A DNA stretch of 34,703 bases. Origin: Saccoglossus kowalevskii (taxonomy: Eukaryota > Hemichordata > Enteropneusta > Harrimaniidae). The stretch's first letter is position 1. Every line of letters begins with the position of its first letter. Made by a program: the position numbers and the translations under genes. Location of the stretch: NCBI RefSeq assembly GCF_000003605.2, contig NW_003115988.1, forward strand, positions 23,968 to 58,670, read 5' to 3'. Shown here one piece after another: positions 562 to 26,024 of this stretch. A model generated the notes under the pieces. The model made no database searches. It saw only the letters and a program-made list of their open reading frames with translations, and was not told the origin of the DNA.

Positions 562-632
562 CTTATATCTGATTTCGTATTCATGGACCGGGTTTTCTCA
601 TTCACGGAGTATAGCTGGTGTAACAGACGTTC
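562..632 (-). CDS. Exon 27: DEG/ENaC pre-TM2 helix region (last exon found)
   Basis: 71 nt, acceptor ..cttcctacag| in phase 0, donor ATAAG|gtactg in phase 2. It codes [20 protein letters not shown] then SDI. Position, phase and character (polar helix after WPS) fit the segment that precedes the N-x-x-KLN-x-YF-E-LN strand and TM2. Sequence conservation here is low in the family, so support comes mostly from splicing and order. Confidence 0.72.

Positions 633-26024: not shown

Follow-up and report, generated by a model that had tools for sequence, protein, structure and literature searches.

A predicted DEG/ENaC channel gene whose finger carries 18 LDLa modules, and its relatives in the genome of Saccoglossus kowalevskii

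We analysed a stretch of 34,703 nucleotides from Saccoglossus kowalevskii (C958:23968-58670, on contig NW_003115988.1 of the 572-Mb assembly GCF_000003605.2; hereafter, the window), whose minus strand carries one gene of the DEG/ENaC channel family. Along that strand, an exon encoding the first transmembrane segment (TM1) is followed by 18 LDLa exons and then by exons for the finger, the palm and the cysteine-rich ectodomain (Table 1). An earlier reading of the letters of the window, the original prediction, had proposed one such chain, from a TM1-bearing DEG/ENaC half through about 18 LDLa repeats to the remaining ectodomain, and Pfam ASC matches, the 18 LDLa exons and phase-1 splice sites now uphold it. 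Judging by its architecture, the position of the array, and the collinearity and selection seen among its paralogs, the gene very probably encodes a single DEG/ENaC subunit in which 18 LDLa modules, carried by phase-1 exons, are inserted into the finger.

The channel part bears the marks of DEG/ENaC proteins (PF00858, ASC), namely the intracellular HG motif, TM1 with FPxVTxCN, a palm and Cys-rich ectodomain, and a second transmembrane segment (TM2) with GxS. TM2, which the original prediction expected to the left of the window, was found there together with the exon preceding it. The left border proposed for the gene, position 562, did not hold up: positions 562-660 contain nothing DEG/ENaC-like by eye in the three minus-strand frames and match no channel exon query. 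For the array, we used an LDLa profile built from 15 window repeats; all of its matches on the contig lie on the minus strand, 18 of them at E <= 0.01, and a degenerate nineteenth copy accompanies them. Seven of the 18 exons were submitted to Pfam and all seven passed the Ldl_recept_a (PF00057) cut-off. The six cysteines and calcium cage of the LDLa module are present in most of the array: six cysteines occur in 16 of the 18 units and four in L7 and L16, and 15 units keep a calcium-cage-like motif as defined by our own pattern. Ten pieces of the gene were compared with Pfam and returned ASC, Ldl_recept_a or no family, with no search aimed at EGF or propeller modules.

Each of the 18 LDLa exons has a phase-1 AG acceptor and GT donor available when phase 1 is imposed in the search; exon lengths divisible by three follow from that imposition and are not independent evidence. 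When sites were instead picked by score regardless of phase, the window gene showed phase 1 at all 18 acceptors and at 17 of its 18 donors, that of L2 being the exception. Across 98 LDLa exons of 12 genes, the same score-only choice gave phase 1 at 94 acceptors and 92 donors, and on both sides in 88. With phase-1 borders, and with L6 ending at 19077, the 18 exons total 2,280 bases (760 residues). Phase 1 also holds at the end of exon 1 and the start of A2, so that the channel frame would be kept whichever of the phase 1-1 exons are used, be it every one or not a single one. Alternative splicing could thus give each gene of the family many arms or none, nearly all LDLa exons and the whole array being skippable in frame. 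The earlier figure of about 54 LDLa modules per trimer stands for a homotrimer without exon skipping and fails otherwise.

Among solved structures, the best matches of the channel core are the FMRFamide-gated channel 7yvb (FaNaC; E 8.7e-42) and then ASIC1. The FaNaC alignment breaks off at query residue 95 and restarts at 193, the first stretch of the ASIC1 alignment trails weakly to residue 139, and the restart region aligns with GHDIREMLLSC of ASIC1. The parts encoded by exon 1 and A2 join near query residue 117, the insertion point of the array. Since the FaNaC gap from 95 to 193 spans this point, the alignment places the array in the finger between α1 and α3 (helix names as in PMC11026163 and as used for ASIC1), after helix α1, which follows TM1 and β1, and before helices α2-α3.

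Table 1. Features of the window gene, in the order of transcription. Positions are those of the window unless given on C958.
Feature	Position	Strand	Basis and remarks
Exon 1	25574..26024	-	Start Met, cytoplasmic HG motif (TTAHG), TM1, FPSVTMCN; Pfam ASC 1-89, E 4e-19; phase-1 end, donor G/gtataa
LDLa exon L1	25288..25404	-	Splice sites, LDLa profile; best pair of unit 1 in C696, C603B, C2855
LDLa exon L2	25072..25188	-	Pfam Ldl_recept_a; splice sites; donor weak
LDLa exon L3	22898..23029	-	Splice sites, LDLa profile
LDLa exon L4	22592..22714	-	Splice sites; calcium motif degraded
LDLa exon L5	21785..21913	-	Splice sites, LDLa profile
LDLa exon L6	19077..19196	-	Splice sites, LDLa profile; better donor at 19077 taken as end
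LDLa exon L7	18781..18912	-	Pfam Ldl_recept_a; splice sites; four Cys
Degenerate LDLa copy between L7 and L8, probably not an exon	16672..16794	-	76% DNA identity to 18784-18910 (L7)
LDLa exon L8	16276..16401	-	Splice sites, LDLa profile
LDLa exon L9	15776..15901	-	Pfam Ldl_recept_a; DNA duplicate of L8 including flanks
LDLa exon L10	15484..15603	-	Pfam Ldl_recept_a; splice sites
LDLa exon L11	15162..15326	-	Splice sites; donor uncertain
LDLa exon L12	12183..12311	-	Splice sites, LDLa profile
LDLa exon L13	11620..11739	-	Splice sites, LDLa profile
LDLa exon L14	11391..11519	-	Splice sites, LDLa profile
LDLa exon L15	10589..10714	-	Splice sites; best pair of C603A unit 3
LDLa exon L16	10071..10184	-	Pfam Ldl_recept_a; splice sites; four Cys
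LDLa exon L17	9503..9619	-	Pfam Ldl_recept_a, E 1.1e-11; splice sites
LDLa exon L18, last unit	7972..8109	-	Pfam Ldl_recept_a; splice sites; counterpart in C696 and C603A
Exon A2, return into finger	4764..5067	-	Phase-1 start; tblastn with paralog protein; alone no Pfam family
Exon A2b core (YGNCFTFN)	4094..4192	-	tblastn; borders approximate
Exon A3 core	3237..3404	-	Pfam ASC 204-267, E 3.7e-9; borders approximate
Exon A4b core (PWDNCT)	3045..3104	-	tblastn; borders approximate
Exon A4 core	1969..2070	-	tblastn; Pfam ASC E 0.038, below cut-off; borders approximate
Exon A4c core, Cys-rich	1657..1725	-	By inspection; alone no Pfam family; borders approximate
Pre-TM2 exon (A5)	C958:15061-15141	-	Channel exon queries; left of window
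TM2 exon	C958:14747-14845	-	DIGGALGLWIGVSAVTLFEVLEL, GxS-type motif, aligned to FaNaC and ASIC1 TM2; left of window

The architecture extends beyond this one gene. Exon order was compared across the window contig and seven further segments, eight in all, which hold nine genes (two of them on C603), using the LDLa profile and channel exon queries and counting channel exon matches above 24 bits. Because the seven comparison segments were chosen for already showing both families, they show order and not frequency. The complete one-strand order TM1, LDLa, A2, A2b, A3, A4, A5, TM2 was found in six of the nine genes. Among the incomplete ones, C3229a lacks TM2, which would lie past the fetched edge, C3229b has no detectable A5, and for C603A no TM1 was found, the first 40 kb of its contig including 18 kb of N. 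Stretches resembling A4c were also present in all seven other gene stretches read alongside. C603B, counted as complete, has a frame break in its TM1 exon and a stop in A2; this LDLa-bearing DEG/ENaC copy (C603:34096-34397 and 42376-42552) may be a dead family member.

A paralog protein query matched A2, which is thus the real exon that the original prediction had taken it for, along with 40 other exons in the genome; these 41 A2-type finger exons (E <= 0.01) came from 44 candidates, and two of them, on C3821 and C1341, are so similar (98%) that a single gene may have been assembled twice. A first look at LDLa across the genome gave 1658 candidates. Using the best 150 of these, LDLa lies within 35 kb upstream of 22 of the 41 A2 exons on their own strand and of none on the opposite strand, against 0.15 expected under random placement; four of the 22 have LDLa downstream too, each on a contig with a second family gene. 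Four of the other 19 loci were read (E <= 0.01), revealing two LDLa units at C4225, four at C696, three in the second C2855 gene and none at C3976. Over the 41 loci, LDLa is therefore counted at 25 and PAN modules in its place at one, which covers 26 loci, the other 15 being outside the count. A TM1 exon was located upstream of the LDLa exons at 15 of the 25, namely at 11 in the genome-wide comparison, at C603B and at three of the loci read. On this evidence, a predicted family of about forty genes shares the finger exon and at least 25 of them bear LDLa arms. Among 12 genes the arms comprise 18, 12, 13, 11, 12, 6, 6, 5, 6, 4, 2 and 3 units, the counts for C603A and C603B being lower bounds. 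Elsewhere in the genome, C4670:36558-41390 packs numerous LDLa repeats at short intervals into a single open frame of 1735 codons, unlike the one-unit-per-exon genes.

In nine control segments of 3.3-5.0 kb (C648 and L001-L008), LDLa matches all fell short of E <= 0.01, the best having 0.074; L001-L008 are a weak control, as they extend only some 1.5 kb past the match at either end. A stronger LDLa-free control is provided by four C3473 copies and C2355, in which the insertion site is read through stop-free; a fifth C3473 copy has two stops. From a small, midpoint-rooted tree of 90 columns, in which 10 of 16 inner branches are drawn open, we used three groupings only. Seven module-free channels split from the rest at 95/96, the rest including C692, a gene left unclassed as to modules. 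The window gene pairs with C696 at 100/100. Lastly, C3976 groups with the LDLa genes at 87/87, a grouping used with caution.

Comparison of individual units demonstrated that the arrays of paralogs correspond to one another. C3229a and C3229b share 12 reciprocal best LDLa pairs in order, C2855 and C3821 share nine, also ordered, and C4507a and C4507b share five. Units 1, 2, 3 and 18 of the window gene pair with units 1, 2, 3 and 4 of C696. The L8 and L9 regions of the window, together with their flanks, are 73% identical across 278 bases, and matches also occur among pieces of L7 to L13; thus, either the window array grew by local exon duplication or the C696 array shrank. We also compared the ratio of nonsynonymous to synonymous change (dN/dS) in arrays and TM1 exons. 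For the window gene and C696, this was 0.13 in the LDLa units (129 codons) and 0.13 in the TM1 exon (104 codons). For C2855 and C3821, it was 0.10 in the LDLa units (292 codons), with an array dS of 1.66 that is near saturation, and 0.10 in the TM1 exon (95 codons). Array dS was saturated in C3229a/b and C4507a/b, which hence yield no ratio. The coding sequences of the two measurable pairs thus indicate purifying selection on the LDLa arrays at the level of the TM1 exon. These results carry the proposed receptor-channel architecture past a single gene, to 25 of 41 finger-exon loci.

The C3976 gene was tried as an empty form of the insertion site and rejected, as it holds PAN modules. Three PAN_4 modules above the Pfam cut-off lie between its TM1 and finger exon (L039 2839-6003; C3976:397139-400303), out of 16 PAN_4 matches genome-wide, and the third is joined to finger sequence in one open frame of 239 codons. 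Among the loci read, this PAN and finger combination is the only single exon joining a module to channel sequence; none held LDLa together with channel sequence. The grouping of C3976 with the LDLa genes hints that PAN replaced LDLa there, although the tree is short. In a list of 137 TSP_1 matches read by eye, none is closer than 35 kb to an A2 exon. A single CUB match, a half module near a contig end (C1687:49412-49600, minus; L040), lies 6.4 kb upstream of a same-strand A2 exon; the best 150 of 402 candidates were scored, and by our own estimate about 0.2 such coincidences are expected, so it could reflect a further kind of module or coincidence and is a lead only. That the finger is a slot for interchangeable binding modules (LDLa in 2 to 18 units, PAN, perhaps CUB), giving some forty modular ionotropic receptors, is a possible but doubtful reading.

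An LDLa-repeat gene could instead be nested in the DEG/ENaC gene of the window, or adjoin it, as a second gene, with no protein containing both. Introns of several kb, the abundance of LDLa candidates in the genome and a gene model known from genomic sequence alone are all compatible with this arrangement, and the last of these weighs against a single gene. However, the same-strand LDLa at 25 of 41 finger loci, the collinear arrays and the matched dN/dS in two pairs make two separate genes very unlikely. TM1 lying further upstream at 15 of those 25 loci, the phase that exon 1 and A2 share with the LDLa exons, and the PAN and finger sequence in one open frame of C3976 argue in the same direction. 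Several further points count against the single-gene model. The L11 donor is poor and the L2 donor weak, two units have four cysteines, and the borders of A2b, A3, A4b, A4 and A4c are approximate only. An 8,161-N stretch, which may be an assembly gap, splits the gene ahead of the pre-TM2 and TM2 exons, and no exon was found between A4c and A5. Additionally, two of the four LDLa pairs between the window gene and C603B are out of order (9-6 and 11-3), dS is saturated in most comparisons, and pairing units by similarity favours a low dN. The C. elegans channels EGAS-1 to -4, named as "EGF plus ASC" channels, gave no current over controls in oocytes according to PMC10424705, so that such proteins may not be channels alone. 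It is also highly improbable that the window gene is a copy in decay with an unconstrained array. The degenerate LDLa copy, the two four-cysteine units, the weak L11 and L2 donors and the damaged family member C603B would fit decay, but the window gene translates without a stop through exon 1, every LDLa exon and A2, and dN/dS is 0.13 across the four units shared with C696.

DEG/ENaC channels are gated by protons, peptides, force or enzymes, with much of the sensing in the finger, and LDLa modules bind many secreted glycoproteins. For the single subunit with its LDLa array, we propose that the arm would act as a calcium-stiffened extracellular loop, anchored on the finger at both ends, that captures a macromolecular ligand, whether a matrix component, a lipoprotein, a peptide carrier or a glycoprotein secreted by cells. 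A pull on the two roots of the arm, or their rearrangement, would move α1-α3, and binding would in this way bias the gating of a Na+-permeable trimer. Such gating by ligand capture remains tentative, falling somewhat short of an even chance. Binding to the arm would be expected to bias gating because, according to PMC11026163, α1-α3a form the FMRFa pocket of FaNaC1 and the same external corner of the finger holds the protease and ion sites of ENaC, together with the proposed matrix tethers of mechanosensitive DEG/ENaCs. The number of genes and their unequal arm lengths point to a family that serves sensing or recognition and whose members bind different ligands.

Other uses of the arm have to be weighed against ligand capture. 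It is possible, if rather unlikely, that the arm binds matrix and that the channel is gated by force and not by a ligand, for which the affinity of LDLa modules for many secreted glycoproteins would be suited. Tethering at the finger corner has been proposed for mechanosensitive DEG/ENaCs (PMC11026163) and a tethering model is described in PMC10148893. About forty genes with unequal arms would require many tethers, though. An arm without a ligand role in gating, being auto-inhibitory or released by proteases as the inhibitory tracts of ENaC are, or serving as a handle for trafficking or uptake, is unlikely; nothing specific favours it, even if LDLa repeats do serve uptake in LDL receptors. The array lies at the finger corner where ENaC has modulatory protease sites (PMC11026163). 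There is a small chance that the arm has some function other than these.

A family with long LDLa arrays at the sensing finger would amount to a natural experiment on wiring a binding module to a DEG/ENaC pore, and would point to a way in which the binding of lipoprotein, matrix or secreted proteins acts directly on membrane current. Test pairs are at hand in the window gene with 18 units versus its close paralog C696 with 4, and in LDLa versus PAN in the same slot. The original prediction called the architecture undescribed. Among the papers listed from an open-licence library, a scope that leaves aside subscription papers, InterPro and UniProt, none deals with LDLa modules in DEG/ENaC channels; the description is compatible with this, and the predicted proteins may already be in InterPro or UniProt.

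Other features were recorded in passing. The intron between L5 and L6 contains a minisatellite of 39 copies of a 22-base unit (window 19815-20678). At window 33662-34111 lies a fragment resembling a retrotransposon (zf-RVT, E 3.9e-6, narrowly past the cut-off), and at 34193-34657 a further open frame without a Pfam match. The mitochondrial contig of the assembly (C4830; L032, L035) has 17,037 bases, with cox1 on the opposite strand to nad1 and cox2, a rearrangement that may be diagnostic of the species. As far as it was read, cox1, a nad6-like frame and tRNA-Pro, names that we assigned by eye, lie opposite most genes; its codons, likewise interpreted by eye, read AAA as Lys, TGA as Trp and AGA probably as Ser. 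These traits may be those of an invertebrate deuterostome, perhaps a hemichordate, whereas the gene order of Asymmetron (PMC2034537) is a misfit.

The window gene can be compared with several known systems. ASIC and ENaC share with it, in alignments, the HG motif, TM1, FPxVTxCN, the Cys-rich ectodomain and a GxS-type TM2. To our knowledge, neither carries shuffled modules; the inserts in the ENaC finger are short regulatory tracts. We likewise know of no LDLa modules in the finger of FaNaC. FaNaC (7yvb, 8on7) is the best match of the channel core, with likeness in TM1, palm and TM2, a kinship that denotes the best Protein Data Bank match and not a tree with named family members. It differs in the peptide-pocket region α1-α3 (PMC11026163), which in the window gene is interrupted by the array. 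The EGAS proteins of C. elegans are DEG/ENaC channels named for their extra modules and set a looser precedent for module addition in this family; their modules are EGF instead of LDLa, a comparison made here by module type (PMC10424705). Runs of LDLa modules are a feature shared with the LDL-receptor family and LRP, and in the window gene they are encoded one module per exon in phase 1. Unlike in those receptors, the array here would form a loop closed at both ends within the ectodomain of a channel.
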